A DNA stretch of 64,000 bases. Source: Bolinopsis microptera. Its lineage: Eukaryota; Ctenophora; Tentaculata; Lobata; Bolinopsidae. Positions 4,167 through 31,597 of this stretch are shown piece by piece. The notes beneath the pieces are model-generated. The model did no database searches. It was not told the DNA's origin and saw only the letters and a program-made list of their open reading frames with translations. The stretch lies in the NCBI RefSeq assembly GCF_026151205.1, contig NC_087077.1, positions 62,001-126,000 on the forward strand, written 5' to 3'. The translations under genes were made by a program, and so were the position numbers. Each line of letters begins with the position of its first letter. The first letter of the stretch is position 1.

Positions 4167-4324
4167 AGCCTGGAGTCCCCAGGTAATGTTTGTGAACATA
4201 ATAGCCTGGAGTCCCCAGGTAATGTTTATGAACATAATAGACTGGAGTCCCCAGGAAATGTTTATGAACATAATAGACTGGAGTCCCCAGGTAATGTTTA
4301 TGAACATAATAGCCTGGAGTCCCC
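4167..4324 (+). repeat. 36-bp tandem repeat, about 4.4 copies
   Basis: The unit begins AGCCTGGAGTCCCCAGG and ends GAACATAAT. Its first 15 bp are a near-palindrome (CCTGG..CCAGG). A single diverged unit recurs at about 4705-4742 and a core copy at 60149-60165. Confidence 0.85.
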
Positions 4325-4784
4325 TATATAATTATTCTAAAAACTGTAGCCTCCTACTTACTTTGTCATTGTATCGTATTAGTGAAACGAACGTGGGGGT
4401 CACGACGTGATACAATTCATACTCGATACTCAGCTTTCAACGAATAATATTTATGCAATTGTTATTTTAAATATTAATACCGTCGGTTGTCAGTGAGTTC
4501 ATCTAAAGTTTTTAATTTTTCAGCAATTCGGTGCCCGCGTTCGCGTGAGTAAATTAATTAATTACCAATACCAACCAATCCAAAGAAAAATTGTGCATAG
4601 CAACAATCTTGTCAGCGACTAGCAAGCATGACAATACGCGCGGCGCGCGAAGTGACGACGTCCTCTTTACTGGGCCGCGCTAGGCCTGTCATTCCGCCAA
4701 ATCTTTATTGTTTATGAACATAATAGCCTGGGGTCCCCAGGTAACGTCCTCTAACTTTATGATAAATTATACACTTTAGTACCA

Positions 4785-4911
4785 TTAATTGACGATGTCA
4801 ATTCATGGCAGCTCGGCGCGGCACAGTAGCGTATCTCGCCGATCTAGCCAGTGTCGCTGTGAGAAGCCTTATTAAGTGCGCGGCGCGGCACAGTAACGCA
4901 TCGCGCTACAA
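4785..4911 (+). mobile_element. Short GC-rich element, copy 1 of 3
   Basis: This is a 127-bp insertion starting TTAATTGACGATGTCAATT and ending GCGCTACAA. It is flanked by identical 8-bp TAGTACCA at 4777-4784 and 4912-4919. It contains two direct copies of GGCGCGGCACAGTA. Two relatives are at 5736-5855 and 47338-47452, each with its own target duplication. There is no coding capacity. Confidence 0.8.
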
Positions 4912-5640
4912 TAGTACCAGTGACCAGGCTATAATTGATAATCTTCATAGCATAAAAATTTTGAAGCTGCGGCGAAATGATAAGCTATAGCAAACGCCGT
5001 GCTTAGTAAACCCCTTTATAAAATATTGCTTTATTTGTGATTTGACGGACATGTCATGTTACTCGTTTAAATTTTTTCGAAGTAGCGCGCTCAGCTTTCT
5101 TCTCGAGTGCTACGAAGTAGTGCGCGCTAGGCTAGTTCATTAACAATGGACAATTACTTTATTTAAACTCTTTGATATAATTTATAAACAACTCGAACTT
5201 AAAGTAATCCAAGATCAAGTAAATTTTACAAGTAAAATTAAATAAACCATAAAATAGCAAGCTGAGTTCAATTCACATTTCATGAAATAAAAATAACTGC
5301 CAGATCAAGTTTGCAAATTTCTTTTCCGTGTATGTAAAAATGTGGGTTTAATAATAAATGATCAATGTCTTGTTGTTATTTAGTTTGTTTCCTCCATATT
5401 TTATTGTTATTGCATTAAATTTAATGTTTCTTAAATTCCACTTTAATGGGTGTAATATTTGTTTGAAATATCTATTATATTGTAAACAGTCCCTACTTTA
5501 ATCACAAGTGCAACAAATATTATGCTGAGTTTTTTAAATACTGTTTGTCCTTTAAAAGGCTAAAAGGGTGATTTAAGTAAGGATGCAATTAAACAAATAC
5601 TATTTGTATTCCTTAATAGCAACCTTGATTGTCCTGGTTC
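4912..5640. other. AT-rich intergenic stretch with a GC-rich repeat relic
   Basis: No coding potential was recognised. Around 5075-5150, in inverse orientation, there is a relic of a family also seen at 24313-24395 and 45744-45885 (shared CGCGCTACTTCG and CGAGAAG motifs). Positions 4618-4700 hold another relic, related inversely to 24610-24655 (TTTGGCGGAATGACAG and GCGCGGCCCAGTAA). Confidence 0.5.
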
Positions 5641-6358
5641 CAGAGGCGGCTCGTGGGAGCTGGCTGGCAGTTTTGTTGGGGGTCCAATCGATGGACTGGG
5701 GGGAGGGGGGCTTGGGAGCCGGCTCAAGCTGATCCTTAATTGACGATGTCAATTCATGGCAGCTCGGCGCGGCACAGTAGCGCATCTCGCATCTCTGTCG
5801 CTGTGAGAAGCCTTATTAAGTGCGCGGCGCGGCACAGTAACGCATCGCGCTACAAGCTGATCCCTCCAAACTACCGATTACATTACACACAGGGCCTTGT
5901 AAATGTAATGTGTAACACTTTACAGGCGACAGCAAACAAAAACAAAAACTTATAACATGGGTGAAACAGGACACCACACGTGTACGATCTCAGCCGCGTA
6001 GTATCATATAGCAGTCAAATTGCAAAGGGTCCTGGACCCCCAAATCGAGGCAAATCATAATAGATTACCTGTAGTGGGATGCGCACGATGTGCTTTGTAA
6101 CGTTTACAATTAACTATGTGTTAAAACTGAGCGGCTGAGTAGTCCAGAGGTAGGATTGGACTCCCTACAACACAAAATTTCACGAAGATCATGCGTGCGC
6201 TTACATTAAAACGTATGATAGTGAATGAAGACCTTTATATTGCGATTTGTTATTTCCTAACACTATTACTAATTACTATTTCTATTTTAAGCACCAGCCA
6301 CCAGATAATAATTTTAAGGCGTCCACGGACGCCTGGACGCCCTCAATAGCCGCCTCTG
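5641..6358. mobile_element. Non-autonomous hAT-like element with 8-bp target duplication
   Basis: The ends are the inverted repeat CAGAGGCGGCT. The flanks are identical 8-bp CCTGGTTC at 5633-5640 and 6359-6366. This is the classic hAT signature. The 718-bp element has no transposase and contains the second GC-rich short element (5736-5855), so it is older than that insertion. Confidence 0.88.
5736..5855 (+). mobile_element. Short GC-rich element, copy 2 of 3 (nested in a hAT element)
   Basis: Same start (TTAATTGACG) and end (GCGCTACAA) as copy 1. It is flanked by 8-bp GCTGATCC at 5728-5735 and 5856-5863. It lacks a few internal bases after CATCTCGC compared with copy 1. Confidence 0.8.
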
Positions 6359-6366
6359 CCTGGTTC

Positions 6367-7078
6367 CAGTTTTAATCAGCTGCAGTGTCCAGTATGGCAA
6401 CAAGACCGGGATAATAAATTTTGACCAGGATGACCCGGGACCAGGATTTTTTGTCCAATTTGAAATCGGCCGGGATCAGTCAAATTTGATCGGGACCGGG
6501 ATTTTAGCTCTATTTGGTTACAAAATTTAGCGGAATCAACTATTAGTGCGAAAGTGATCCATGTTTAAGATGGCAATTTGTTTAAGATAAAAATGTGCTA
6601 TAATTACTTTTGAGAAGAGATCAAGAATTTTTTCCCGTCGCGCTGGTAAAAAGTCCAATCCTGGCTACGGCAGGGCCCTGGTACCAGGATCACGGTGGAT
6701 CTCTGGCACTACCAATTTAGTTTAAGCCATAAGTGCAAAGTTAGCTATAAAAATCAATCAAGATTTAAAACAATAGTGTTCAAGTAGCTCTTGATATGAA
6801 TCCTTAATTCCTTTCAATGACAATTAATTCCTGTTCATTTATGACATAGGGCATGGTTGCTCCATCAATACTGTCAAATATATCATTTAAGCTGCAAATT
6901 GACAGCCTGCCTATGTTGTGCAGATCATGCTGCAGACGTAGCCAGTTTAGTTTTACTCTATCAGATCAAGATGATTTATTAATATCTAGACAGGTCCAAG
7001 TTTCTCCTTCTGAAGTTGCAAACTTATTTTAAAATTCTGCTTTAGAAAAAATATTCGTTTTAGTGTGCTAGCCTCCTC
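6367..7078. other. Non-coding stretch with GACCGGGA-type repeats
   Basis: Positions 6395-6520 hold repeated GGGACCAGGAT / GACCGGGAT motifs and 6650-6705 hold related CCTGG motifs, probably an old DNA-transposon relic. I could not find matching ends or a target duplication. No gene was seen. Confidence 0.35.
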
Positions 7079-7396
7079 CAGTGGCGTAACGAAGGGCCCC
7101 GCTGACCCCGCTGTGTGGGGAGGGGGGGGGGGGGGGGGGGGCGCCATCTTAAGGGGCAAAATCGTTGTTTGAATGTGGGACAATTTTGAAAAACTTAACT
7201 GAGGTACTAGCAAAACTGTGTGTTTTGCTCTGGAAACACACATTTTTAGAGATTTTACCAGCTTATCCTCTAAAATGACCTAATTTGTTCAATTTTAGGG
7301 AGGGGCGCCAAAAGGGGAGGGGGCGCCAACAGGGGGGGGGGGGGGGGGGGGGGCGCATTTTTGGCAGGGGCGCCAACAGGCTACGTTACGCCACTG
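7079..7396. mobile_element. Small hAT-type MITE with CAGTGGCGTAACG ends and poly-G tracts
   Basis: The left end CAGTGGCGTAACGAAG and the right end, read inversely, CAGTGGCGTAACGTAG match over 16 bases but one. CAGTGGCGTA is a common hAT terminus. Two long G tracts (7122-7141 and 7336-7353) sit inside. The 8-bp flanks do not match clearly, so the target duplication has decayed or the ends are slightly off. Confidence 0.7.
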
Positions 7397-7720
7397 CCCT
7401 CTAAGAACTTGCCCTCTAAGTAATTTTAAGGAAACCTTATCCATGAAGTCCCTCTCTTACCTGATTTGTCTTTTGTCAAGGGTTATTATTTGATTTGATT
7501 TATTCTATATTCTGGCAGTACACCATTATCAGAAATAAGAATTGCAGTCTGCGCAGGGAATTGCTAGTCATAGATAATGCACGATACCTATTAAAATACA
7601 AGTTGAAATGAAATGATATTTGATTTGCTTATTTCAATATGCCAGCTTTTCATTTGTTGGTAGCAAGATCAAGTAAAATCTATATTCTTAAATTATCATT
7701 CTTCAGAGTTCCTTCCAAGG

Positions 7721-9214
7721 ATGACTTTTACTGATGAAGACATTGCAATCTTGAAGTCATCCTTGGCTGCACATGGCCAGGAACATCTTTTAGCTCACTG
7801 GGAAGACCTATCATCAGATCAAAAAGATGATCTTTATCGAGATATACAGTCGATTGATTTTACCAATCATCTGAAGAGCTTTAAAAGATGTATGCAAAAG
7901 GAACTCTCTGCACCTGGAAAAGAGGATTATCTCAAGCCACTACCCCCTGATGCATGTGAAAGTGTATTCATTTCAAATAAGATCAATGAAAAGTGGACTA
8001 ACCGAGGGCTGAAAGAGATAAGTGAAGGGAAAGTTGCTCTGCTTCTAATGGCTGGTGGTCAGGGTACACGTCTTGGTGTCCCTTATCCTAAGGGAATGTA
8101 CAATGTTGGATTGCAAAGTGGCAAGTGTTTATATCAATTACAGGCTGAGCGTGTACGTAAGCAAGAACAATTGGCAGCTGAAATGTACGGATCCTCCAAA
8201 GCTATTAGATGGTACATAATGACCAGTGAACATACAAAGAAAGCCACTGTTGACTACTTCAAATCTAATGGATGGTTTGGTTTGTCTGAAGAAAATATCA
8301 TCTTCTTTGAACAAGAAATGATACCTTGTTTATCTCTTGATGGAAAAGTGATAATGGACAGCAAGTTTTCGATCGCTAGAGCACCAGGTGGTAATGGTGA
8401 TCTGTATAGGTCCATGGGAAATGAAGGGGTGCTGCAGGACATGCTCAAAAAGGGTGTCAGGAGCGTACATTGTTATTGTGTTGATAACATTTTAAACAAA
8501 GTCCCTGATCCACTTTTCATTGGATGCTGCCTTGATCGACAATCGGATTGTGGTGCAAAAGTAGTGAGCAAAGCATACCCCACTGAAGCTGTTGGTGTTA
8601 TTTGTGAATGTAATGGGACCTGGAAAGTTGTAGAATATAGCGAAATTTCAAAGGAGACCGCTAATATGGTTGACAGTGAAGGAAAATTATTATTCTCTCA
8701 AGGAAACATATGCAATCATTATTTCACAACTAGTTTTCTAACAAAAGTGATTGAGGGAAAAGAATCCCAACTCATTCATCATGTTGCTAGAAAGAAAATT
8801 CCAACTATCAACAGTTCAGGAGAAAGAGTTCTGCCAACCGAGATCAATGGTATCAAGATGGAGAAGTTTGTGTTTGATGTATTCCAGTTCTCAGAGAAGT
8901 TCACCGTTCTCGAGGTAGCCAGAAACGAAGAATTTTCTCCTCTCAAGAATCCTCCTGGAGCCCCAAAATGCTCACCTCAGACATGCTTGGAGGACCTTTC
9001 CAATCAACACAAGAGATGGATCATCAGAGCTGGGGGAACTTTCAAAAATGAAGGACTATGTGAGATCTCACCCTTGGTGAGCTGTACTGGTGAAAACCTT
9101 GAAGATTTAGTCAAGGACAAATTTTTCAGTTTGCCTTTACATCTTGAAGTGACACACAAAAATGGTTACCACAACGGACACACCGGTACAAATGGGTTAC
9201 ACAGCAAGCTTTGA
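7721..9214 (+). CDS. UAP1: UDP-N-acetylhexosamine pyrophosphorylase, intronless
   Basis: It catalyses UTP + GlcNAc-1-phosphate to UDP-GlcNAc + PPi in the cytosol, the last step of the hexosamine pathway that feeds N-glycans, O-GlcNAc, GPI anchors and chitin. The 497-residue protein is full length (human about 505-522). The uridyltransferase signature AGGQGTRLG is at residues 111-119, followed by YPKGMYNVGL. The sugar-binding core includes APGGNGDLY, VHCYCVDN, YPTEAVGVI and the C-terminal KRWIIRAGG. The start at 7721 is the first ATG of the frame and gives the family's usual N-terminus. A possible 3' splice site (CATTCTTCAG) lies just upstream, so a non-coding 5' exon is possible. Unlike DKC1 and PGM3 in this window it has no introns. 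There is no obvious poly(A) scar. PGM3, the preceding enzyme, lies 2.9 kb downstream on the same strand. Confidence 0.97.
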   Translation: MTFTDEDIAILKSSLAAHGQEHLLAHWEDLSSDQKDDLYRDIQSIDFTNHLKSFKRCMQKELSAPGKEDYLKPLPPDACESVFISNKINEKWTNRGLKEISEGKVALLLMAGGQGTRLGVPYPKGMYNVGLQSGKCLYQLQAERVRKQEQLAAEMYGSSKAIRWYIMTSEHTKKATVDYFKSNGWFGLSEENIIFFEQEMIPCLSLDGKVIMDSKFSIARAPGGNGDLYRSMGNEGVLQDMLKKGVRSVHCYCVDNILNKVPDPLFIGCCLDRQSDCGAKVVSKAYPTEAVGVICECNGTWKVVEYSEISKETANMVDSEGKLLFSQGNICNHYFTTSFLTKVIEGKESQLIHHVARKKIPTINSSGERVLPTEINGIKMEKFVFDVFQFSEKFTVLEVARNEEFSPLKNPPGAPKCSPQTCLEDLSNQHKRWIIRAGGTFKNEGLCEISPLVSCTGENLEDLVKDKFFSLPLHLEVTHKNGYHNGHTGTNGLHSKL

Positions 9215-10490
9215 GAAGGAGCTCACTTGAATTGTAGTGTTATATAATAGTCGTTTTACCGATGATTGATTTTTTTCGGAACAAGCCTTAGGGTTAATAT
9301 AAGTCTTTGCAATGATTTTGTGTGGCAGCGATGAAACTGATGAACATTTTACTTAAACGATCACTCATTTTCCCAGATCAGTATGTTGCAACTAGTTAGA
9401 ATGCGTAATTCGTGTAGAATATCAAGGTAGCTAGAGGATTTAATAGCTGAGAATCATCACAATATGCTGTAGTGTTATGTTACATGTTCAACTTAAGGAG
9501 CTGACGAACCTTTAATCAATAATATTTGTAATTTAATGTTTAAATCTCCGATTGAATAAATATCAGATTCTTAGAACCTGTTGTAATAGTATGTATGATA
9601 TAAATTTGAAACAAAAGTTCATTTTGTTAATTAATAAACTTCACAAGCAGTCTTCACACCTTACACTTGCACTTAACAAATATCATTTGTCATGCATGGT
9701 TTATCTACTCGGATTGATTAGATTGGCCGGTATTCTACCCTCCCAAAGATTATTTATATCTAAATGAGAAAACAAATTTGCGTGAAACTATATTTGTTCA
9801 TTACTGTCGTGAAAGTTTGGCCTCACTTTTTTCTCTCTTCGTGCTCGGAAATTTCAGTTGAGTAGTGCATGATTACTCAGAAAATGGTTTCTTTTATGGG
9901 CATATAAATATGATCGTTTGTTGATTTTTTGCCATTGTTTAAGTAAATTCAAGAAATAATTGATTTTCAAAATATATAATTTTCATCTGGAGATTTTAAG
10001 ACCATGGTCACCAATAATTATTAAAGCTGCATTCAATTCGTTGTTAATTTAATCAAACAAGTAACTTTGCTATTGAATTGAGAATATGAAAAATCGTTAT
10101 ATTAAGTTACAGCGAGGTCATCGTTACAATTTGATTGATAATTAGACTGAAAAAATATAAATTATAATGGCTGCAATAATTGAAATCATAAAATAGAATC
10201 ATGATTGGTTTACAAACTCTATAATAATAAGTCTTAATACAGTATGTTAAAAGTTTCGTTAATAGTTCAAGATATTTCAAATTAATTTCGGCCAGTTTAT
10301 TAGACAGTATGATTTTATTTTAGCTAAACCGGTTTAATCTTTAAAAACTTTGCACGTGTATGCTGTGTTTCATAGTTGATTTCGTTCATAGTTCATTAAT
10401 CATTATATTATATTTCCGCAGACACTGTGTTTAATTGATTTAAGTGGTAAGAGTGAGTATATCACATGTGACCAGTTAAGCCTTATAACT
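9215..10490. other. UAP1 3' flank, AT-rich intergenic
   Basis: Possible polyadenylation signals are AATAAA at about 9556 and 9634. Otherwise it is AT-rich sequence with no recognisable gene or repeat. Confidence 0.5.
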
Positions 10491-11920
10491 TATAGTAGTA
10501 GTAGTAAATCTTTCAAAGTACGAAATATCTCTTTAAAAGAGCATCCTAGGCACCTTATAGATATCAAAACGCATAAAAAAGAAAACAAAAACATCAACCA
10601 TCTTCTAACTTCTTCCACTCCTCCCTATCTAAAGCTAAAAATCTAAGGTCTTCGAAATCAGTCAAATTCTTAAGTCTAATATCAAGATTTCTACTAGTCA
10701 AGTCTTTTCTAATAACATCTAATAAGTTTAAACATGGTCTACCCCGTCTCCCTTCCATAAAAATATCAGAATTTATAGCAAATAACATAGAGGTGTATGC
10801 TGGTGAGTCTTCCTGTCCTCTTAAGATATGTCCTAACATTCTCCATCGAAACTTAGAGACTCTCACAGACAAGGGAGTGACATAACAACGAGCATAGAGT
10901 GCCTCATTAGAAATAACCCCAGTAGGCCATCTGATGTTGAGGATTCTTCGGAGGTGTTTGCGATGAGCAATATCAAGTTCATTCAACGAAGCTAGTGGTG
11001 CAGCCCAGGAGTTGCAGTTGTAGAGTAGAATAGAGACTACTTGTGCCTCGTAGATTTTGATCTTCCTTTGGACTGAAATCTTGCTCTTCATCCAAACTTT
11101 CTGAAATTTACTAAAGGCAACATTACCAAGGAATATTCGATTCTTGATATCCTTAACAGTGCACATCAACGATCCTAAAGTTTTGTTAGAGCGCCACTCT
11201 TCATCACCTCTATACACTTTTCCAACAATCACCTTGCGTTTAACAGTGGGTTTAGGATCTGCTAAATAAAAATGGACAAATTCAGTCTTGGAAGAATTGA
11301 TATGAAGGTCCCACTGCTGGAATATATCTTTAGCGATAGGAAGCATTTCTTTGAGTGGAGCAAGTTCAGTGTTATTAAAGTCAATATCATCAGAGTATCC
11401 TGTTTCGAGTGGCATGAATTCTTCTGAGATAGGAGGATTAGGGATTGGATGATTCACTGGGTAAGGTGTTGATGATACTTGGGAGAGTACAGATCTGAGG
11501 TGAATAAGTGCAGCGGCTTCAACAACAGTAAATAGATTACCTGATAGTGCATCTCCTTGAAATGCTCCAGTTGTGCTTTGGAACTCAATTGATACAGTAT
11601 TATTGACTTTTACTTTCAACACTGTGTTTGATAGTAGGAGCCGTACCATCCTAATTTCATCACTAGTACAGCCAGCATCTTCAAGAACATTGAGTACTGT
11701 TTCTCTGCTGATGGTGTCAAAGGCACTTGACATGTCTATACTCATTCTGTGGTAGCTCCAATGCTTTCTAAGTACCACTGAGGTTAGCATACGTTGAGAC
11801 CAAATTATATCGCCACAACTTCTACCTCTCTTGTAAGCACTTTGTGTAGGACCGGTGTACTGATCTAGCTTGCCTTGGATACGTTTTAGGGTAATCATTG
11901 ACAGGTTATAAGGTTAAAAA
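10490..11920 (-). mobile_element. 5'-truncated non-LTR retrotransposon between UAP1 and PGM3
   Basis: A minus-strand ORF of 434 residues (10594-11898) encodes RT palm and thumb: SAYKRGRSCGDI, MSIDMSSAFDTISR, TGAFQGDALSGNLFTV, the catalytic YSDD (YADD/FADD position) and a C-terminal RWRMLGHILRG region. The endonuclease and N-terminal RT are missing, as expected from 5' truncation during target-primed reverse transcription. The 3' end is marked by an (ACT)n tail, seen on the plus strand as TAGTAGTAGTA at 10494-10506. The frame is intact over the retained part, so the insertion is fairly recent. A decayed relative lies at 20.1-23.3 kb. Confidence 0.88.
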
Positions 11921-12107
11921 TAAAGATACGCCCCAGTTTTCCAAATGAGAACCTATCATACTGTAATACCCCAAAAAGCAGTCAATAGAGTGAACTCTTG
12001 CACACTTCCATAAATCCAAAGGCATTTGGCGTGAAATTTAAAAGTCATATCACGACTTAAACCCACACCTCAAATTTAAAAGTTTAAACACTTCACCTGA
12101 TCAGATA

Positions 12108-15100
12108 ATGTCTGGAGACGGAGTGTCTCCTCTGGAGGTTACACTAGAGAGTGTCCGGGCCACTGCCTCCAACTACAACATCCCCCCAGATGTGAAGTAC
12201 GCGTACGGAACAGCTGGATTCCGGTGTAAAGCGGATATATTACCTCCTGCTGCTTATAGAATGGGATTACTCGCTGCCCTCAGGTTATTATAATACAATG
12301 TGCTCTCGATTATTTGTACTAGAAATTTGATCAAGAGCATTGGGAAAAACATTTGTGCAAGGCATTCACCCAAATTTTTCGAATAGATCTGCGAGGAATT
12401 CAAAGATATTCAGTTGGAGTAATTACTTTGCAGTTATCCAGATTTAATTATCAGAGCTAAATCAGTGAAGGCAACTATCGGAGTGATGGTGACAGCCTCC
12501 CACAACCCACCAGAAGATAATGGTCTGAAAGTGGTGGAACCCCAGGGTGAAATGCTGCTGCCTAGGTGGGAGCATTACTCTACTCAGCTGTCAAACACTG
12601 ACTCTGCTTCTCTTGTTGAGGTTAGCATGGGTGTGGGTGTGGGTGTGGGTGTGGGTGTGGGTGTGGGTGTGGGTGTGGGTGTGGGTGTGGGTGTGGGTGT
12701 GGGTGTGGGTGTGGGTGTGGGTGTGGGTGTGGGTGTGGGTGTGGGTGTGGGTGTGCTTTGTTTGTTTCTATCAATTTCGGTTCGTTAATCTGTAACGTAA
12801 GTGTGGTGATACTTGACTTTGTTCTACTTATTCATTACACTACGTCTGCTAGGATGTGGCACTCATTATTACATGGATTGAATTTCAGTCATTGGAGAAG
12901 AACTTCAAGTTCTTTTTGTTGATCAAATTAACAAAATAATGTTTGCAAAATTCTGCAGCCGATCAAATTTTCGTATTGGGCACGTATCAACATTCAACAA
13001 AGTTATAATATACACAATGTTACGTTATGTGTACATTGTACTCACCACATATAACTACTGTAAAGTGTAAATCCTTGAACATAATATGAACATTAAATAT
13101 AAAATAACAATTTTACCAAAACGTACACCAGGTGCTGCAGGACTTTTCTGATGAGGCGGAAGTGACCCTGACGAGCTCACGTGGGAGACTGGTAGTAGGA
13201 CGGGACACTCGGGAAAGTGGACCTGATATTGTGGCTGCTGTTACTGCTGGCGCTGAAAATTTACAATGTAAGGTAAGATTTTATGACCATTTCCTCCGTG
13301 GAATAAGATATTTTGAATCACGTTTAAGAATTTAAATTTGTAATCCAAAACAGTTGAAGTACTACGTGATTGAAATTTAGGTGCAGGTCCGAGTTTTTAA
13401 TCTCAATTATCTGAGTACCACTCCTCTTAGTGGGCGAGAAGGATGTAACACGTGGTTACTGACACGTGGTTACTGACACGTGGTTACTGACACGTGGTTA
13501 CTGACACGTGGTTACTGACACGTGTCTGATTACAGGTACATAACATCGGAGTGTGCACCACACCCCAGCTACATTGGATTGTCAAGCAAACCAACATCTC
13601 CAAACCTAACACTCTCCAGGACTACTACCGGACTTTTGCTGACAGCTTTATACATTTGTATGGAAAGGATGATGTGAAACACTCAATTAAGGTTCGGTTT
13701 GTTTAATAATGGGAAATAGTAAATTAAAGACGTTTAATTTCTCTATTAAATCAAATCTAACGGGTGATATTCTTAACAGCTAGGTTAAGACAATTATGGC
13801 AGCGCAGTTCGCGTACCAAGAAGAATACGAGTTTGCACTTAAACTAGTCCAAGAAGTATCCCAGACGTTCACTCCCGCGTTCCACACCAACAAGGATATC
13901 GAGACTAAATCATTCGGATCGGATCTTGTCACCAAAACAGACCAAGCAGTCGAGGCAGCAATATTCAGTGCGATAAGAACAAAATATCCCTCTGATAACA
14001 CAATCGGAGAGGAATCTTCGGAGGGAGCAATATTCGATAATCGCAGAACTTGGATCGTAGATCCAATAGATGGAACAACTAACTTTGTCCACAGTAACCC
14101 CGAGTGTTGCATATGTATAGGGTTCACCGTGGACAAGACCTCCAAGTTCGGTGTTATCTACTGCCCAATACTCAGGGATCTCTACACAGGTAGGCGGGGT
14201 TTTGGAGCGGCTCTGAACGGCCGCCCTATCAGAGTGTCTGAAACAACAGCCCTGAATAGAGCGCTGGTGTCCACCTACGTGATACCAAGTAAAGGTATGG
14301 GGTTGAGGGAGAGTATGGAGAGTATCCAGAGGGTGAGTGGGGAGAGAGAAGGGTGTTGTCATGGTCTCAGGCTGGGAGGGAGCAGCGCTATCATGATCTG
14401 CCAACTTGCTGCTGGTTAGTTTACACCTACTTTTACTTCTAGTTTAATTTCTATTGGGTTTTAAATTTTGTGGCATTAGCCAAAATCATATCCAGAGCTG
14501 AGGGAATATGACTATGATTTCAAAATCAGCCCCCAAAATTAAGTCTTTCTGTTGTACATTATTTTGTATCCCTAATTTAATTCTCGTTTCAGGAAATGTT
14601 GACGGATTCTGGTTAGAAGGGCTCCACATCTGGGACATGGCAGCAGCAGTGGTCATAGCAAGTGAAGCAGGAGGAGTAGTGATATCCACTCTACCCGGTG
14701 AAGAGTTTGATCTGACTCGGAGAAGAGTGGTAGTGGCCAGCACTGAACAGTTGGCTGGCGAGATAAGAGATAGGATTGTCAGGGCGCCAGATGACCTTTT
14801 TAAGAGAGAACATTGCTGAAATTAATAGTTTATTTATAATACGTTATCCATTAGATGCATAGAGCATAGAGCTGGTTTATTTTTGATTTAAATATGATTT
14901 TTAGATTTTGTACTCATTGATGTTATATTTTTATTCTATGGTGAATTCGTGTTTTCGGTTTATATTATACATCAGAAAATCGGTTTACATACATCGGAAA
15001 ATCAGACTTATCGTATCTTTGTTTGCATCCATTTTTGCAGAATTTTGAAGTTTGTGATTCAAAATAATTACCACCCGATGAGTATTTTAATTAACACCAT

Positions 15101-15479
15101 TTTGTAAATTGAAATATTATTTTCAATAAAAATCATCAAAATCACTCTGTTGACTACCGTGCTTGGTTTGCAGTGAAAAGGATGTAATTACTGCAAAATG
15201 TACAGAATCGGTCATAAATTTCAAAAATGTTCCGTCTTTCGAATTGATCACGTTCTCATAATAATAAATTTTAATATTAACGGTTTCAACACGTATTATA
15301 AATAATATAATATAGATTATTTAATTAGCCCGTTGTTTCAGGTAGACTGCGCTAACGGGGTGGGAGCTATTGCCCTGCGGACCATAGCACCTTTACTATC
15401 CGATCATATCGACATCACTATCTGTAATGATGGTTCTACTGGGAGACTCAACGAAAACTGTGGAGCTGACTTTGTTAAG
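12108..15479 (+). CDS. PGM3: Phosphoacetylglucosamine mutase, first five exons only
   Basis: PGM3/AGM1 converts GlcNAc-6-phosphate to GlcNAc-1-phosphate, the substrate of UAP1. Exons: 12108-12283, 12455-12620, 13132-13272, 13536-13691 and 15342-15479, all with GT..AG borders and consistent phase (259 codons). Visible signatures are YGTAGFR near residue 33, the active-site TASHNP with the phosphoserine near residue 74, [23 protein letters not shown] and CGADFVK. The metal-binding FDGDADR loop, the sugar-binding EANGHG segment and the C-terminal phosphate-binding domain, about half of the roughly 540-residue enzyme, are not found before the next gene. The gene is either truncated or its 3' half lies elsewhere. 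A complete IMPA1 gene sits inside intron 4. Intron 2 begins with a (GTGTGG)n run and intron 3 holds a CACGTG array. Confidence 0.88.
12629..12755 (+). repeat. (GTGTGG)n hexanucleotide array in PGM3 intron 2
   Basis: About 21 near-perfect copies start only 8 bases after the exon 2 splice donor (GAG|GTTAGC). The G-rich strand is the transcribed-sense strand, so the pre-mRNA could form G-quadruplexes next to the 5' splice site. Confidence 0.95.
13449..13524 (+). repeat. 14-bp CACGTGGTTACTGA array in PGM3 intron 3
   Basis: 5.4 tandem copies end 11 bases before exon 4. Each copy holds a CACGTG E-box, giving six in 76 bp. Confidence 0.9.
13796..14819 (+). CDS. IMPA1: Inositol monophosphatase, nested in PGM3 intron 4
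   Basis: It hydrolyses myo-inositol monophosphates to free inositol in a Mg-dependent, lithium-sensitive reaction that supports phosphoinositide recycling. Two exons (13796-14414 and 14593-14819) join in phase to 281 codons, close to the usual 277 residues. Metal-site motifs are all present: GEES at 71-74, [14 protein letters not shown] from 86 (Asp 89 and Asp 92), [14 protein letters not shown] at the intron border, and the C-terminal WDMAAA with Asp near 221. The gene lies wholly between PGM3 exons 4 and 5 on the same strand, 104 bp after exon 4, with a polyadenylation-compatible AT-rich 3' flank. This is a complete gene inside another gene's intron and not a fused exon, because it has its own ATG and stop. 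Confidence 0.96.
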
Positions 15480-16690
15480 GTATATTAATTAAAAGGGCTT
15501 AACTTTAGAGAGATTTAGGGATATTTAAAGAGTTTTACATTCTGGTGATATGATCCTAGTCCCATGGGACAGGAATAAATAAGAGCTATTAATTAGTTCG
15601 TTAAATGATAATTACTAGATATCTGGACCGGTCACGTGATTATCAGAAGGACTGCCTCGGCGCTCGATCTAAGTCAGGCCAAAATGCTATCAAATCTTGA
15701 AATCGTTTCATCTGTTTGATAAATATGTAGCTCAGTTTATATTTTTTAATTCATTTTTTTACGACTGTCTAAAAGTCTGATAAAACGAAAGCTCCCGAAT
15801 CCATTAAATGTGTTTTGACAGTTAACATATATCATAACTGTGTTACATTCTAGCCAGCTAGTAATAATTTAAATTATAATCATAACCATGAATGCAGATG
15901 AATGCTTACACGCAACAAAATTACATATATCTATGAACAATTTCATGGCTGAATGAACTTGAAAAATCTCAGTACTCGGAAATTTCAGAACTCAGAAATC
16001 TCAGAACTCAGAAATCTCAGAACTCAGAAATCTCAGATCTCAGACTAAGTTGCAGCTTTAAATGTCTTAAATAAAAGTATAAAACAAGGGGTAAAATTAT
16101 CTTCAGTCCTTTCCTTGTTTATCATTGAATGAAGGCCTTATCTTGATAGAAGTTTATCAGTTTCCCAAACAGCCTCTCAGTTTTTCTTTGATACATTTTC
16201 ATCTTCCCAATTCTTCCCATGATTAGTACTTCATGTTTTCACTGTTACAGATTTCTCTCCTCCAATCTGCCTACAGTACCTGACACTACTGTCACAAGCA
16301 GCAGAAGATTGTTTTATCTTCACTGCTTGTAACAGCTGGTTAATGACAATACTACTGGAAATCATCCCATTCTCAGATAAGGTTGTTAGTTTAAATAATT
16401 ATCTATTTAGGCTTCACCCTTAAATTATTGGCACCTGTTCTGTAGTCACCTAGATACAAACATTACCATAATTTGAGGGTGAAATAGCCATCTTATAAGA
16501 TACCAGATGAACAAATTAGTAATTTATTTTGATTCGATTTATAACAAGTTATAAGTTTATAGCTGTATAGCTGTCAACTGTCATGACGTTATAATCTGAT
16601 CATCTGAAAACTTAAATAGAAAAGACACGAGTTTTCTGCTAAGACCAGTGGATAACTTTCGTCAACTTTTTATATACTATACCAAATATA
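15480..16690. other. Region after PGM3 exon 5: no confident exons, one tandem repeat
   Basis: I searched for the missing PGM3 motifs and found none. A possible exon at 16252-16380 (acceptor TTACAG, donor AAG|GTTGTT) keeps one frame open containing LTLLSQAAEDCF, faintly like the LxNQAxGD segment of PGM3, but this is weak. Positions 15966-16044 are a 16-bp tandem (CAGAACTCAGAAATCT), about 4-5 copies. Confidence 0.4.
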
Positions 16691-16724
16691 CCTTAAACAA
16701 AAGTACATTTAATTATATACTTAC

Positions 16725-19712
16725 TGAAGCACTTTTCAAACCCGTAACCAGACTTGTGGCCCACTGGACACTTTTCACAAATACTCCTACTTGAGTCATG
16801 ATACGTCTTTGGTGGACAAATCTTACAGAATTCTATCTCCGTGATGAGTTTGTCGATCGATAAACACTTGACTTTTCCAACTTTACACTTCCATTCGCTG
16901 CACTCTGTCATGTTAACAGAACCTGCTTTACACTTCCATGTTATTTCACCAGTTTCTCCATCCGCCCACATATCTTGGGCTAGTGTAATGTCCAGGTCTG
17001 GTGGCAGTTGTTCTTTTACTCTGCAACTGTTTGTGTCATCACATTCAAATGATGTGTCATGAAACTGCATGCTATCAACCTTTACACAGGTTGCAGTAGT
17101 GGTCGTGTCTGAGTTGGGACCAGATGGTGTGTATCCTGGAGCACATGTCACCCTCACAGCGTCTCCTAACTTTACTTTATCTACAGGCTTCCCTCCGACT
17201 GTGAAAGTGAGTTTGGGGTCCCTTGAACAGCCATAAACAGTGATCTGGACATCAGTGTCAGAATATGGCGAGCTAGGTCTAGGTATAGGTCTAGACATGA
17301 CTCTACAAGTGAAAGTTGTGTCTTCTGTAGCTCCTTTAACCTCCAGAGTAGCTGTCTGCCTATCACCATCCAAGGTTCCAGAGTTTGGAATGTAGTTACT
17401 GTTAGAGTCCGCATAAATTACAGTACCTGAAGGTTCCAGCCAATAAACGAAAACTCGGTTTGTTATTCCCGCTATTTCACAGGTTATAATGGCGTCTGTA
17501 CCGGATTTAACCTCAGCGCTGAAGGTTGTTACCTCGTACACATTCAGTTGAACATCTGTTTCAGAACTTGTTGAGTTGGGATACTTTCCTGAAGTTACTC
17601 TGCAGGTGTAGGTTTTATCCTGATCTACATCGTGTCCCTCCACCTCTAGAGTCATAAACTGCGTCTGCTCGTTATCACGTTCTACCGTTGTTGGGTCAAT
17701 ACTGTTGCCTCCGCTTGTCAGCCATTCCACCGTCATTAAAATTAATATTCCTCTTGATCTTATCCAACACTCAATCGTTGCATTCGTACCCGCTTTTGTT
17801 TCAAAATGCATCGGGTAAACGTCTGAAATTAAAAAAAAGCGAATTAATTTGTCCATTTTTTAAGAATTGAACAGTAAAACTTGTGTGTATAATTTCAGTT
17901 TCACTTACCATACACCTCCAGCTGAGCTAGCTCTTGCTGTTGATCCTCTGGATCTTTACCGGTGACCGTACAAGTGTATGTTTTATCCTCAGTTACCACA
18001 TCCCCACTGATAACTAGTTTTGTTGTCTGTTTTCCTGAATCTGTTATCTTCCCAAATTCTTGAGTATAATCATCTCCAAAGTCTGTCGATCCTGACCAAG
18101 TGATTGTGACGGGATCTTGGATTCCAGTTACAGTGCAAGTTAGAATGCTCGCTGTGCTAACATGAACTTCTAGATTGGTTACTTCCACATCTGAAATAAT
18201 ACCATTTTGATATTTTAATTTAGTTATTTAACCTAATTCGTTATAAACTTAATAAATTCAATTTACTTAATTAACTTGTAAGCTATTAAAAAATCTGATC
18301 TATCAGTGAAGAGCTCAAACATTGAGTTCCTCACCGGCCCGCCTCTTTACTCCTACCAATAGAACTTGCTGCATAGCTCTACTCTACTCTACTCTACTCT
18401 ACTCTACTCTACTCTACTCTACTCTACTCTACTCTACTCTACTCTACTCTACTCTACTCTACTCTACTCTACTCTACTCTACTCTACTCTACTCCACTCC
18501 ACTCCACTCTACTCTACTCTACTCTACTCTACTCTACTCTACTCTACTCTACTCTACTCTACTCTACTCTACTCTACTCTACTCTACTCTACTCTACTCT
18601 ACTCTACTCTACTCTATTCTACTGATACTCTACTCTACTGATACTCTACTCTACTCTACTCTACTCTACTCTACTCTACTCTACTCTACTGATACTCTAC
18701 TCTACTCTACTGATACTCTACTCTACTCTACTCTACTCTACTCTACTCTACTCTACTCTACTCTACTCTACTCTATTCTACTCTACTATACTCTACTGAT
18801 ACTCTACTCTACTCTACTCTACTCTACTCTACTCTACTCTACTCCACTCTACTCTACTCTACTCTACTCTACTCTACTCTACTCTACTCTACTCTACTCT
18901 ACTCTACTCTACTCTACTCTACTTTACTCTACTCTACTCTACTTACCCCATCTACAAGCCTGAGGACTGGTTCCTTGTCCTGCTAGCACTGTTTTACCAC
19001 CCGTACACGCATCACACTGGGTTACTTCTCCTCCCTCACTGTATTCTCCTGCAGCACAGCTCTCACATTGGCTTGTTCCTGTGCTCCAGTACTGACCGGG
19101 GGAACATGTTCCTGCCAGGGTATACTAGTTACTGTTTATAAATACTCTTCTCTATTATTATTTAATACATTTGATTTATTTTATTTTATATTTAAGGTAT
19201 TACTGATAGTTGGTTATATATCCGGTTGGATATATTATTATATATATATCCAACTATCAGTATTTCAATCATGAGACTAATAAACAGCGAACTACCCCAT
19301 CATTTTATATTTAAGGTATTGTTTGATGCTAGGATCTTTTTTGTTATTTTTTACTAAATGTGTGTGATCATCTAATAGTGTAGGTACTGTCACACTGTGA
19401 CAGTACCTACACAATTAGATCTAAAAATAAGTATTTGTAGCAATTCCAGTTCTTCAGCAGGAAGATGGGAAGATAATTGTAATATTATTTTTTAACTTAC
19501 CAATTTCATGCAGTATCCTATACTCCAATGCTACAGTGGTTTTTAGAAACGTGAACATCGGGTCGAAGTTGATAAAATTCGCACAATATTTAGGATAGAA
19601 GTATTTGAACACTTCCTTTCCGTTACAGGTCATGGTAAGGAAACCATCCGATTTCTTCAAGGTCCATATCTGTATGTCATCTGCTGGGATCTGGTAGCTT
19701 CCGCCACCCTCT
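16725..19712 (-). CDS. Ig / CCP / cysteine-rich extracellular protein, partial
   Basis: Exons on the minus strand, with donors reading GTAAGT: 19712(approximate)-19501, 19124-18947, 18190-17909 and 17822-16725. In order they encode: a YQIPADDIQIWTLKKSDG...MTCNGKEV module, resembling extracellular CNG-type modules of invertebrate receptors; a cysteine-rich GCC2/GCC3-like (TNFR/ephrin-receptor-like) repeat, CSPGQYW..CESCAAGEYSEGG..CDAC; one Ig-like domain (ILTCTVTG...DKTYTCTVTG); two more Ig-like domains in the long exon (NATIECWI..TYTCRVTSG and IITCEIAG..TFTCRVMSR); a CCP/sushi-like domain (VRVTCAPGYTPSG); and a final cysteine-rich unit, CPPKTYHDSSRSICEKC. Neither signal peptide nor transmembrane segment is in view, so both ends are missing. 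The role is probably adhesion or immune-type recognition; no specific function can be claimed. Confidence 0.72.
18378..18945 (+). repeat. (CTACT)n pentanucleotide array, about 113 copies
   Basis: A 568-bp run with interspersed variants (CCACT, TGATA). It lies in the intron of the minus-strand receptor gene and abuts the exon at 18947. The last variant unit, ACTTAC, is the GTAAGT splice donor when read on the minus strand. All long frames here are repeat artefacts. Confidence 0.97.
19201..19262. repeat. Inverted repeat, 13-bp arms
   Basis: TACTGATAGTTGG at 19201-19213 pairs perfectly with 19250-19262. The 36-base middle is AT-rich and partly self-complementary. It lies in an intron of the minus-strand receptor gene. 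Confidence 0.8.
19371..19419. repeat. Near-perfect 49-bp palindrome
   Basis: The 17-bp arms at 19378-19394 and 19396-19412 (GTGTAGGTACTGTCACA and complement) are perfect around one central base. Continuing outward to 19371 and 19419 adds seven more pairs with one mismatch. It lies in a receptor-gene intron. Confidence 0.92.
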
Positions 19713-20099
19713 CAGCATTCTCACCTGGAATCTCGTGTTTGAACCAACTTTGATCAGTCTGTTCAAACACTATGTAGGAAGTGGCTTATGCCCGAACTTT
19801 TGGATGCTAAGGCCCAAACTGGCTCACGAAACTGGTACCTACTGCTTTTTGATTCCTTTCTACATTATTGTCCCACTCCTTTGAAAATTTTGCTAGCACA
19901 TTCCATCATTTCTTAAATTGTTGACTATTATCCATTATTGAGACGTTTTTAATATTTAATTTAAGAGGGTTTTTTATAGACTTTCAATCAGTGTGAACCG
20001 ATAACTAAATACCAGATTATATATATTTTTAAAGTGAGATACATGTTCATGGAGCTCAAAGATCGATTAGTAAGTTTTGCAAATGTGGAAAAAAAATTT

Positions 20100-23000
20100 C
20101 AGGAGAGTGTTTGAAGAAAATCGTTGGGGATCCCATCGGTCCAACAGCTTATTCCGTTCTTGAGTTCTGGCCGCAAGCTCAACTGCAACGACTGTAATGG
20201 GGTTTTTTTGAGGGGCCTAGGGTACCTGTGACCGGTTCTAATGGGGTTCACTGTCAGGTCCAGTGGTAGGTGTTCTTCGAAGTACTGGCTAATGATTTCA
20301 GCCTTGTCTCGTTCATTATCTACAGTTGGTTGTCAGTGTTGAAACAGACACAGAGCCTGCACCCTTTTCAGTTTGCCTGAGTTACGAGCAAGCTTTCAAA
20401 AACATTCTCCGGTCCTTCGTCTATGGTGGCTATAGAGTTAGCTAGGCTGATTTGCTAACTCAACTCCTCAATGTTTTCAACCTTTTAGTATGTCGTTTGA
20501 GAGCCTGTTTGATTTTAGCTCTGAGAGCTGTTCCTGTCTCGTAGTATCGTTGTTGTTCCAGTTGTTGTAAAAGTTGTTTCCTTTCTTCAGACAGTATCTA
20601 ATTCTGCGGACACGTGTACGGCCGAGTCCAAGGAATGATTCCTCTTTCGCTGGGCTTGCGAAAACCCAAGTGGAAACAGCAGCTTCTTTTAACTTCACCA
20701 AAAAGTAAATCAAATTGCTGTTCCTGTTGTTGGAGGTAAACAGGAGCTGATACAGTTTGCTCAAGTTTCTGACGGAGTTCTTGCTGATATTTGTTGTTTG
20801 CGGCCTGTTTGCATCCATCAAGTTGTTGGGTTAATAAGTCTTCTGAAATGCTCTGCCTCGACCCGTACAAAATGAAGCGCTGCGAAAATCTGCCTTGGCA
20901 TAACAACAAGTTTGTGTCACTGCGTGCTTTTATGTACCTGCATATGACCTGGCAGTCAGTTAGCAGTGCCTTGCTTCTGGACAGCAGAGTATGAAGTCAA
21001 TCTGTTGGAATAAAGGTTTACTCTCTGCTTCCTGGTTGCTCGATCCCGAATCCAACCAGTCCGTGTGGTAATGTTCTGCTTGCTATGGGAGAATGAAGTG
21101 TTGGCAGCAAACAGGCCATTAGCATGAGAAAGTGGTAGCAACCTTTCACCGTTTTCATTCCTCCTCCCTACACAATGACAACAATATTCCATGTAAACCA
21201 TTTTCTACATCAACAGGCTTCTTTTTGCCAAGAATGGCATTAAAGTCGCCTAACATCCATACTCAAATCTAGCAGGTACACTGATAGCCTCGAGTAGCTC
21301 ATCGTAAATTGATTGCTAATCGGGGATTCTGAACTGACTTGGATTCGTAAGGGCTGTAAACAATTAACAAGTTCTGATACGACCAGTGTTGATCCACCCT
21401 TTAGCCTTAAATTAAAGTCCATAATAAAACAACTCTGTCACTGATCTGATGATGAGATACTATACATTCCAAAAAACGCTTGTTAAACATAAAAACCCAA
21501 GTCCATGCCCCCCCGTGTCTATCGTGTCCTCTAACATACAAAAACAATCCGATGATGTCCAGGGAGAGTTGTTTCTCAGCAATGTATTCAACGTGTCTTG
21601 GTCTCCGAATGCTAAAAATGTCAAAGTTATATCGTCGATGTCCTCTGCAACAAGTGTTGCCTTGTATTTGGTCGATAGACCGCAAACATTCCATGTCCCA
21701 AAATTGAAAGTGTCGTAGCCATGAATAAAAGAGTAGCGTAGACTAGGAATCCTGCGATCTTCCTCGAGGCTTAAACGACTGACTTTTACAGTCATGCGAC
21801 CCGTTACAGTCACTACACATCACTAAACCTATACCTTCTTTCACAGAGGGGATACCTTACTCCGCTCCAAAACCTGGAAAGCCCCTAGGGGCCCCCCTAA
21901 GAGTTTGCGCCCACTTTGCTACTAAACGGTACTAGAAAGATATTGTCCCATGATAGTCTTGAAGCGCATCCAAAGGCAAGATAACTCAATACACTGGTCC
22001 CATGGCAGAATGCCTATAAACCAGCCATAGTTGTGCAAATATCGATTGGACCCATCGAATACTAGTGTCATTTGTCAAAGAAAAACGCTGGTCTCTTCAT
22101 AAGATGGTCATTGACATTCCTCTGCTCTGCTTGATACCATAAAGAGGTCGGTATACTTGACATTTAGCTGATGCTGTGGTTGTAGTGAGACGACATTCGA
22201 CTGGTAAGGTTTTTGCACCGCTCGCAAAATACTAAACAGAAGATCAAAGTGAAACTCAACAATATCGGGAGAGTTAATTGTCACGATTGGAGCATTCAAG
22301 GCGACAGTTTTGTCTGGAAACTTGTACACCTCCTATATCTGGCAGCAGCACTTTTACACCTGCGGCTGTTTAATGTCCTATCTAAGACCTAACCCTCCCA
22401 TAGCTGAGAATCTGATCCCCACGATGGGAGTAGCAGATGAGCTGATTTTAACTGATGAGGGAATAAAAGCCCACTTGGAGTCTTTGTTGCCAAGTATGTA
22501 AAGGAGATATTGAAGAAGTGGAATCTTTTTGTCAATGAGTCAAAACCGAGTTCACCCACTTCTATCTGGCCGGCAAGAACTAGGTTTGGATGACAAAGGA
22601 GAAGCCACTCAGATAGGTAGAGAACCTTGGAGGTCGCTAACTCTTTAAGGCTCAAAGTTGTGTAGCATTCGAAGATGGTCAAGAGACGTGTCACTTGCTA
22701 ACATTGCTTTTTCAGAATACAAAAAAGTCAGGGAACAAGTAGAAGTATACCCTTGAAGATTCGACTCAAGATTAAGGAAGCACAAGTATGTTTTTCAATA
22801 CTGATGTATATTGCAACAGTTGGGCAACATCTAAACAACTCCTTCAAAAACTTTTGTCTGCCACAGAATCATCATTCCGTACGATCATTGCCTGACCTAT
22901 CCCTAATGTCATACGAAATGTGACTCTATAATACAAACGCTGCGAAGTTGTTTCACTAAGTGATCGTGCTGCTCGTGCACGTGGATAAATGCTCGGTCAC

Positions 23001-23340
23001 ATCCTCCGCATGGATAATAACTCACCTGCCCAGCTTGCCTTTACATTTTGCTGTAGAGAGTCAAATTTAGATGAGAGGTAGAGTCGGACGACACCAGTCA
23101 AACTATGTTAAAAACTATTTGGAAACATTAAGTGACAGAAACTTAGACTTTAAATACAAGAACGATTTATCCATTTAAGACCTTTGCAATACAGATAGAA
23201 AAGCAATGGGAGCGAGAGTTAACAATGATTTAAGTTAATTACTGTGTATATTTTCTCTTGGTTACTTATCAGGTCCCATCAAGATGATCTTTATGTTCTA
23301 TTTTTGATTTGAATAAAGTTATATAATAATAATAAAGTGA
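20100..23340. mobile_element. Decayed non-LTR retrotransposon with inverted 5' half
   Basis: On the minus strand, 21813 down to about 20100 encodes a broken apurinic-type endonuclease: FNFGTWNVCGLSTKYKA at the N-terminal end, GRRNENGERLLPLSHANGLF further on, then the start of the RT. On the plus strand, about 22310-23240 encodes the RT C-terminal half: NPPIAENLIPTMGVADE, WNLFVNESKTEF, MLGHILRMDN, LSDRNLDFKYKN. It is related to the element at 10.6-11.9 kb. A (TAA)n tail ends it at 23322-23337. Many stops and frameshifts show that it is old. The 5' half is inverted with its 5' end at the junction, which is the arrangement expected from twin priming. Confidence 0.75.
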
Positions 23341-25084
23341 TATTTAATAAATGATTAAAAGAACCAATTTTAAAGTTGCCATAGTAAAGCCTTAGGTCCA
23401 AAAATATACACCATTAGCTCACTAAAAACAACTCTAAGCAGTAGGCTGTCACTCTATTAATGCACCACAACCGCTCCCTCCACTGCACTAAAAGTTTACA
23501 AAAATGCTACAATCCTAATTTTTATCGTGATCGAGACCGTGTCCCCATACAAACATATTACTAGGGTTGCCGTTTGTGTGGGAGCAAAGCGAACAGCACG
23601 CACACCCTCCTTCCCCGTCAACCTATATCTAATCCTATTAAAGAGTGACAATCTACTACACATTGAATTAGGATTCCGTTAAATATCAAATTTGATTTAC
23701 TGTAAACTTGTTTACTCAGTAATAAATGGCATAAAATTTGAAATTTTTGTTTTACTGAATTTTTTGTTAACGACAATCTCCGTGTCATTATCCATGAGTC
23801 CATCTAAATTTATGAACTATTGCATGGATTGATAATCAACTATATTCAATGACTAAGGTTGAATATCAAGGCGTTTATACTTAAAATATTCGGTTATAAT
23901 AAATATAATAATTCTTGACGAGATCCCAAATCAAACGATCAAAATCTACTAAAAAAGCTTTTTTTTATTTTTACCAAATATAGATGTTCTCGTAAATCGC
24001 GCTCAATCATTTTTCTGAAATAGCGCGCGGCGTTTAACATTTAAATTGCCAACTTTAAATTCATTGCATCATCCTCACACTCAAATTTTAAATTGTATCT
24101 ATTTTTAAAGTTTTAAAAAATATTTGCGTTATATTATAATCAATTATAAATACCAAACCATTAATTTTTAATTTACATTATCATATGTTTGATATCCATA
24201 CTTGTATGCCCGCCGCGCACTGAGTGCGCCCCGTTGTATCGTGGCTGTAGCGTGGTTTTCACACATACTAAGTAACCGACAATGGGGGTGCACGACGTTG
24301 ATATTGAACCATTGTTAATGGTCTGGCCCGGCGCTCTCGCTACTTCGTACACTTATCGAGAAGAAAGCGGCGCGGCGCTAACTTCGAAGAATTTAGACAT
24401 AACTACATCAGTCAAGACCGTGATACACATTTTTGATAATTTTCTTTTTTGCATTTTATTGATTTGTTTCACATGTCCAATCCTTCGCAGATCGGTGAGG
24501 TACAAGTGTGCATTTCGCCGATCTTGGTTTGCAAGAAGAATTATTTAGATGCGCTGGCGCGACCCGAGTAGTGCCATTAACCGGAGACCACAGGCTATTA
24601 TTTTCATTAACAATATCATTTGGCGGAATGACAGCTGAGCGCGGCCCAGTAATTGATTTTTGCAATTTTTGGCAATTCTTACATACTGTATATCGCCGGC
24701 GCGAAAATGTTTCGCATCTAATCTGTTCCGATTACATACGAAAAGATGTTTCATAGAATCGAGCGCCTACACCTGAGGCTTACTTATAATACCAAATCCT
24801 TAAGTCCCATTGCCTGATCCTGGAACAGCTGTGTTATTCCAGCCGAAGTCACGATTCGACAGATCTGGCAGCTTGGTACCAAATAAATGCCATATATAGT
24901 ATGTCCCTGCAATATGTCTTATTTTTCATTGCAACATATCATATCTAGTCCAGTAAAATGAAGTGCCAGTCCTTTCTCCGCAGCACAGGAACAGTATAGA
25001 ATAGTAGTAAGATGGCCATTTCTTTGTCAAGGCTATGAAGAATGTGCTTTTTAGAATTGAATGAAGCACGCGAGAAAGTGCATT
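23341..25084. other. AT-rich intergenic with GC-rich repeat relics
   Basis: No gene was recognised. Positions 24180-24760 hold CpG-rich repeat pieces: 24313-24395 resembles 45744-45885 and, inversely, 5075-5150. Positions 24610-24655 (TTTGGCGGAATGACAG) resemble the inverse of 4640-4700. The ORFs in this stretch are repeat artefacts. Confidence 0.5.
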
Positions 25085-25440
25085 GCTAAAGCTAATAATA
25101 TCATAGTGGAACTTGAGTGGCAAAAGAGTGACTAAAAGGTATATTCCTTTTACAAAGATACTCGAAAAGATCCAGGGTGATATCAGATCGTAGACTGCCA
25201 GACCGTAAAGTAATACCACCCACCTTGGCCGGTCCCTGGAATCTTGTTTGGATAGACATTTATGCAACTTGGTCGTTTACACTCCAAGTCCCTTTGTTAA
25301 AAGAAGTAGTAATTTTTTATGTCTGAGTAACTTCATTCAATAATAACACAATCAGATCATATCAGACTAAACTATCAATACATTATCAAATATTAATATC
25401 ATTCGTTCTTAATAACCATTTATAAATTAAGATGTTCTCA
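25085..25440 (-). repeat. About 350-bp dispersed repeat, left copy of an inverted pair
   Basis: Read inversely, this matches 29395-29760 with many small differences. Shared blocks include TTACTTCTTTTAA..CAAAGGGAC and TCACCC.GGAT.CTTTCGA. The retrotransposon relic at 26.5-29.1 kb lies between the two copies. I see no coding sequence. Confidence 0.65.
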
Positions 25441-25741
25441 TTACAAGTGTTAAAAACGCCCAAAATCGATCTGAGAGTTTGTTTTCAGTCTGTAGTACAC
25501 TCACGATAGTAAATAGTAAGTGTGTGCCCGCTGCAATAAGATTAGGTTCCTGCAATTTAAAATTGTTTGGAGTCCAAGTAAACTTTCAAGTCAGCAGCCT
25601 GGTGAATGTATTAATAGTGCTTTTGGTTCTCGATTTTATCAAGTTAATGGAAGCATCTAGCAATTGCTTTGACGTGAGCATTTTTTAAAAGACATTGTTC
25701 CAAAGCTGCTGCATTAAAACAAAAAGGATAATATTTATTTT

Positions 25742-29080: not shown

Positions 29081-29394
29081 ATAGCTTTATGTACACTGTC
29101 TCTAAAAAAAATTCTAACCTCAAGGTCATTGCCTAGAAATCTTCCATTAACTTTGATAAAATTGAGAACCTATGCACTATTATTACAAGTACAGGCAGCT
29201 GATTTATAAGAAACTTGGAATCCAACAATTTTTAAATTGCATAATCTATTCTTATCGCACGCAGCAACCACTTAACACACTTAATATTTCTATCATGATT
29301 GTATTTCGACTGAAAAGCTCTCAGATCAATTTTTGGGGGGCGTTTTTAAAAAACCACTTGGTTGTAAGTTTTTTAATTTTTTAATATCCTTAAC

Positions 29395-29760: not shown

Positions 29761-29799
29761 GTGTCCCCATCAAAGGGATATTTACCTGATTATAAATAT

Positions 29800-31592: not shown

Positions 31593-31597
31593 GACAG

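Follow-up and report, generated by a model that had tools for sequence, protein, structure and literature searches.

The 64,000-nucleotide stretch of Bolinopsis microptera DNA analyzed here (the window; C6:62001-126000 in an assembly of 264.65 Mb and 232 contigs) carries UAP1 and, downstream of it, the 5' half of PGM3. Our analyses suggest, with a probability of roughly 0.7, that the window is an unpurged alternate-haplotype version of an intact UAP1-PGM3 locus situated ~2.8 Mb further along the scaffold, altered by a ~353-kb inversion or by a misjoin. The original prediction was that these two genes of consecutive hexosamine-pathway steps are neighbors with a retrotransposon fragment between them, and the local order bears this out: PGM3-like exons follow UAP1 on the same strand, head to tail, 2893 bp after its stop codon, and a reverse-transcriptase open reading frame (ORF) with an RVT_1 match occupies the minus strand between them. 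What was taken for a PGM3 gene, however, is not complete, because searches of the 64 kb revealed five N-terminal exons and no C-terminal half. The parts of the pair in the window are the following.

7721..9214, plus strand: UAP1 (UDP-N-acetylhexosamine pyrophosphorylase), single-exon coding sequence, 497 amino acids, intact
12108..12283, plus strand: PGM3 exon 1 (from the ATG)
12455..12620, plus strand: PGM3 exon 2 (catalytic-serine loop TASHNP)
13132..13272, plus strand: PGM3 exon 3
13536..13691, plus strand: PGM3 exon 4
15342..15479, plus strand: PGM3 exon 5, the last found in the window, ending at a GT donor

The five PGM3 exons (12108-15479) are in phase, are bounded by GT donors and AG acceptors, and encode 259 amino acids that correspond to residues 11-263 of the 549-residue AGM1 of A. 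fumigatus (AfAGM1; PDB 4bju). The catalytic serine loop of domain 1 is present, and the metal-binding (DGDAD), sugar-binding, and phosphate-binding loops that also mark the family were not found in the window PGM3. In the domain boundaries that PMC3763426 gives for AfAGM1, domain 2 (residues 188-305) bears the metal loop with the magnesium ligands Asp284, Asp286, and Asp288, domain 3 (306-442) bears the sugar loop, and domain 4 (443-542) bears the phosphate loop; a fragment ending at residue 263 therefore stops short of all three. The window half of PGM3 keeps its phosphoserine loop without any metal-, sugar-, or phosphate-binding loop and, because these three are lacking, should not encode an active mutase. 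A perfect (TGGGTG)21 array (12628-12755) begins at base 8 of PGM3 intron 2.

The missing half was sought with a human PGM3 sequence, with a fungal C-terminal half, and with a two-sequence profile; phmmer --max was run against every stop-to-stop segment of 15 or more amino acids on both strands of the 64 kb (2759 in all). Five segments reached E < 0.05 with the human PGM3; these are the five N-terminal exons, and with this probe the C-terminal half was not found on either strand of the window. The fungal C-half and the profile gave nothing significant in the window segments (best profile E, 0.42), and a six-frame motif scan of the window returned no DGDAD, EANGHG, or SGTE and one unrelated FDGD. 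The human C-half scores 299 bits against AfAGM1, and the same phmmer search applied as a positive control to the second locus recovered four C-terminal exons (E = 1.6e-33, 7.7e-24, 2.6e-5, and 1.3e-4). Regarding sensitivity, tblastn missed PGM3 exon 1, which phmmer recovered, and the weakest N-terminal exon reached only E = 0.038, so that a short diverged exon could escape detection. The N-terminal half of PGM3 matched the genome 11 times, with five hits inside the window, another five at C6:2.875-2.8785 Mb, and a weak one on C7; the C-terminal half matched twice, both times at C6:2.8673-2.8682 Mb. The idea that the window holds a complete PGM3 with distant exons was rejected, because the C-half was detected at a single place in the genome, C6:2.867-2.869 Mb, outside the window.

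That place belongs to an intact PGM3 (C6:2878506-2867313) whose gene model, predicted from sequence with exon 4 placed from the alignment of the two copies, unites the four domains in nine exons and 541 amino acids. Its product matches Candida AGM1 (PDB 2dka) over 22-530. UAP1 lies 1480 bp upstream in the order and strand seen in the window, PGM3 intron 5 is 5739 bp long, and no N occurs in the 130 kb examined around this copy, which also carries the inositol monophosphatase gene IMPA in PGM3 intron 4. In its intact version the locus comprises UAP1 and PGM3 head to tail, with IMPA inside intron 4 and, inside intron 5, an Ig-domain gene that runs on the other strand. Between window and intact copy, UAP1 differs at 7 nucleotides and 2 of 497 amino acids, PGM3 exons 1-5 at 8 nucleotides and 2 amino acids, and IMPA at 4 of 281 amino acids. 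An assembly join between the two genes, which the original prediction had named as grounds for its refutation, was rejected: both copies show the adjacency, the second with the same order and strand at a distance of 1.48 kb, and the window contains no N. The adjacency is thus genuine, and we count it once because both copies seem to represent a single locus in different versions.

On a larger scale the window falls into three blocks.

4220..19153: homologous block, inverted relative to C6:2885793-2871685 (blastn pieces of 89-98% identity with gaps between them)
19154..31649: repeat-rich junction block, searched over 19154-29200
31650..60582: forward homologous region, sampled at 31650-36300 and 56000-60582 (92-98% identity, with gaps)

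The inverted match continues to the left of the window as far as C6:56962, and on the right the homology ends at position 19153, a point that falls within intron 5 of the intact PGM3. In the forward region, window 31650-36300 matches C6:2518448-2525241 (97 and 92%) and window 56000-60582 matches C6:2609870-2614833 (97 and 98%); further along the scaffold, C6:171.1-172.9 kb matches C6:2636114-2637897 (77 and 94%), again forward. This course, backward over 2.888-2.872 Mb and then forward over 2.518-2.638 Mb, resembles one end of a ~353-kb inversion. In the reading that we favor, an alternate-haplotype contig would have stayed in the assembly close to the beginning of scaffold C6; it would run backward from 2.888 to 2.872 Mb, pass through the repeat block, and go forward from ~2.518 Mb, with one inversion breakpoint (or a contig misjoin) in PGM3 intron 5, and the outcome would be a complete UAP1, a complete IMPA, and a PGM3 cut after exon 5. 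While both copies, their gene order, the missing half, the scaffold gap, and the orientation of each sampled stretch are directly seen, we infer that the copies are alleles rather than paralogues and that the junction is that of an inversion. The unusual local history that had been proposed for the gene pair would then be real in another sense, as a haplotype-like duplicate with a halved PGM3 and a 1.4-kb insertion that the intact copy lacks.

Two features expected of a retained haplotype are found, namely a second copy at low divergence and a contig or scaffold break nearby. A scaffold gap of 100 N lies at C6:56221-56320, 5.7 kb upstream of the window; the contig preceding it likewise shows matches to C6:2.80-2.82 Mb, at 88-98% in its longer forward pieces, and this first C6 contig (C6:1-56220) is a palindrome in which 5-19513 pairs with 41734-22030 reversed at 84-91%. 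Compared in 500-bp bins over the aligned block, window and intact copy are 0-7.4% different, with 11.2% in the bin holding a CTCTA array. Identity is 99.53% in the UAP1 coding region, 99.53% in the UAP1 3' flank, 99.42% in part of intron 5 (15480-16690), and about 94.4% in PGM3 introns 2 and 3, so that low divergence occurs in coding and non-coding stretches alike. Such mosaic divergence appears easier to explain by two haplotypes in a heterozygous animal than by a single-age duplication. Under the rival account of a segmental duplication, over 100 kb from C6:2.5-2.9 Mb would have been copied, partly inverted, toward the scaffold end, giving two UAP1 genes, two IMPA genes, and one PGM3 pseudogene. 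The conservation of both UAP1 genes, each intact, and of IMPA is in keeping with this account, as is the retrotransposon insertion present in the window copy and not in the intact one; on the other hand, the block has the scaffold gap and the palindromic first contig next to it, the matching pieces share a single source region on this scaffold, and non-coding stretches of 99.4-99.8% identity lie beside others of 94%, as between recombining alleles. We regard the duplication as unlikely.

Several points nevertheless weigh against the alternate-haplotype reading. A simple haplotig would not normally have the inverted order, which calls for either a real inversion or a misjoin; beyond position 19153, matches to C6:2.80-2.93 Mb are confined to short pieces (up to about 700 bp); two sampled stretches represent the homology of window 31650-64000 to C6:2.52-2.61 Mb; the searches with the repeat block scored part of the candidates only; and there is the unlikely alternative of a true segmental duplication close to the end of the scaffold.

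Besides itself, window 19154-29200 matches only multicopy repeats among the candidates scored (40 of 1000 and 40 of 3330), and no copy of the block at C6:2.5 or 2.87 Mb is among these. As a sub-case of the haplotype reading, the junction may be a contig misjoin within the repeats and not a natural breakpoint, which we hold to be only a little short of an even chance. The junction does fall within multicopy repeats, and the assembly contains noisy, apparently unpolished sequence, both in a UAP1 copy on C7 and in the palindromic first C6 contig; against this, repeat copies longer than 1 kb are 88-90% identical among the matches listed, too diverged to confuse accurate reads, and the sampled pieces agree with a simple two-breakpoint inversion. 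That the animal was instead heterozygous for a natural ~353-kb inversion, which would break the essential PGM3, leave UAP1 intact, and persist as a balanced recessive-lethal, seems to us rather unlikely. A tandemly self-similar stretch of about 1.4 kb (30197-31598, 70-79%) immediately precedes the point where forward homology to C6:2.518 Mb sets in. The forward region itself contains sushi and PUA-domain ORFs, and for ORFs in 31650-60582 we presume the names dyskerin and ATAD5. A 698-bp piece at 42852-43549, probably a mobile element, resembles C6:2822222-2821524 (97%) and is lacking there in the first C6 contig.

The C7 copy (C7:17637985-17642691) corresponds to at least window 6271-10929, including UAP1, its flanks, and 435 bp of the retrotransposon, and upstream of UAP1 its homology runs to the limit of the sequence compared. 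Over 4.66 kb, it shows 206 substitutions (38 of them transitions) and 234 indel events. An old processed pseudogene was considered for this match at 17.64 Mb and rejected, as both flanks are homologous and indels (234) outnumber substitutions (206); the two C6 copies, by comparison, differ by 232 substitutions and 31 gap events. Because it is rich in indels and shares the first 435 bp of the retrotransposon, we take it as unpolished long-read sequence of the window version, which it looks like, and not as a further gene copy.

For the gene pair as such, the original prediction had proposed co-regulation or a selected cluster, and the present analysis lends this no support. Genes of one pathway do lie adjacent, although they are two only (1.48 kb apart in the intact copy), and their shared order and strand at that distance would be compatible both with a selected, co-regulated cluster and with the haplotype reading. 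However, GNPNAT1, which acts one step before PGM3, is placed on another scaffold, C2, where a human GNPNAT1 probe matched two stretches of a single locus (46 and 37%), a putative GNPNAT1; IMPA, nested within PGM3, encodes no enzyme of the pathway; UAP1 and PGM3 are not divergently arranged, so no shared promoter is indicated; and the human genes are unlinked, on different chromosomes (1q23 for UAP1 and 6q14 for PGM3). Chance must also be considered. Assuming 15,000-30,000 genes and 500-2000 consecutive-step pairs, about 0.03-0.27 adjacent pairs of this kind are expected per genome on either strand, and half as many on the same strand; a scan of many genomes should therefore meet a few. A selected cluster is unproven, the pair being not far above chance, and we consider it very improbable.

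UAP1 itself is one open frame without introns and with no stop within its 497 codons. Its product matches Pfam UDPGP (E = 1.8e-50), aligns over nearly its full length with UAPs of known structure, including AGX1/AGX2, and contains the nucleotide-binding motif GGQGTRLG; judged by these similarities, the predicted protein is a member of the UAP1/AGX pyrophosphorylase family. The genome search with UAP1 gave five matches: the window copy, a nearly identical minus-strand copy at C6:2881480-2879990, and three on C7 that overlap one another. The uninterrupted UAP1, set against the nine exons of intact PGM3, and the lack of an intron-bearing UAP1 among the five genome matches raise the tentative idea, on the doubtful side but compatible with the haplotype reading, that a UAP1 mRNA was retroposed beside PGM3 and that the intron-bearing parent was lost. 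Neither an A run of eight or more (9215-10700) nor exact direct repeats of 10-12 bp shared by 7100-7720 and 9215-10600 were found, although age could erase both, and intron loss in place would leave the same picture. Possible 3' splice acceptors (CAG) occur at 7704-7706, 12102-12104, and 13777-13779, which is 14, 3, and 16 nucleotides before the ATG of UAP1, PGM3, and IMPA, respectively; such placement is as expected with spliced-leader trans-splicing, in three cases only.

The remaining elements of the locus are these.

10495..11905, minus strand: non-LTR (long terminal repeat) retrotransposon fragment (RVT_1), between UAP1 and PGM3
13796..14819, plus strand: complete IMPA (inositol monophosphatase) gene, two exons (13796-14414 and 14593-14819), 281 amino acids
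16696..19124, minus strand: Ig-domain gene ORFs, with Pfam Ig matches in 16696-17859 and 17904-18227

The reverse-transcriptase ORF (10597-11913, minus strand) matches RVT_1 with E = 6.3e-13, and a DUF6451 match in the same region is below the cut-off. The insertion, 1411 bp in length, is absent from the intact C6 copy; at the empty site the blastn pieces overlap by 5 bp, and a check for an exact target-site duplication at the assumed borders found none. IMPA lies in PGM3 intron 4 on the same strand, 104 bp past exon 4, and an exact direct-repeat search around it found none. The Ig-domain ORFs, beside which lies a Cys-rich ORF (18939-19124, judged by eye), sit in PGM3 intron 5 of the intact copy and are cut by the homology edge; close to that edge, the CTCTA array extends over 567 bp (18377-18943). 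Scans for tRNA genes and Rfam families found none.

Since the PGM3 of the window is a half gene in what appears to be a leftover haplotype, counts of two UAP1 and two IMPA genes, and linkage claims made from the window, could mislead. The gene pair is of less interest than the question whether the inversion splitting PGM3 arose naturally. If so, the locus would be a defined case in which a polymorphic inversion disrupts an essential metabolic gene; agm1-deficient mice die before implantation, according to work cited in a passage of PMC3763426. If the inversion is a balanced recessive-lethal, the inverted chromosome would survive only beside a normal one.

In comparison with known systems, the locus resembles the metabolic gene clusters of eukaryotes in that two genes for consecutive steps are adjacent and differs from them in having two genes only, with the other placed gene of the pathway elsewhere. 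UAP1 differs from known UDP-N-acetylhexosamine pyrophosphorylases in its coding region without introns, and it reads APGGNGD where the five PDB alignments examined, out of nine matches, read APDGNGG, UDP-glucose pyrophosphorylases carrying GD at this position. With PDB 1jv1 (UAP1/AGX1) and 8yp3, it shares similarity over nearly the full length and the motif GGQGTRLG. The window exons of PGM3 match PGM3/AGM1 (PDB 2dka and 4bju), covering residues 11-263 of 4bju with the serine loop TASHNP, whereas the metal, sugar, and phosphate loops are lacking in the window copy and present in the intact C6 copy. Finally, haplotypic (false) duplications in long-read assemblies (for example PMC7203741 and PMC9516828) are like the present case in their divergence of a few per cent, scaffold gap, and insertion differences, whereas the copy described here is inverted and joins places ~353 kb apart.

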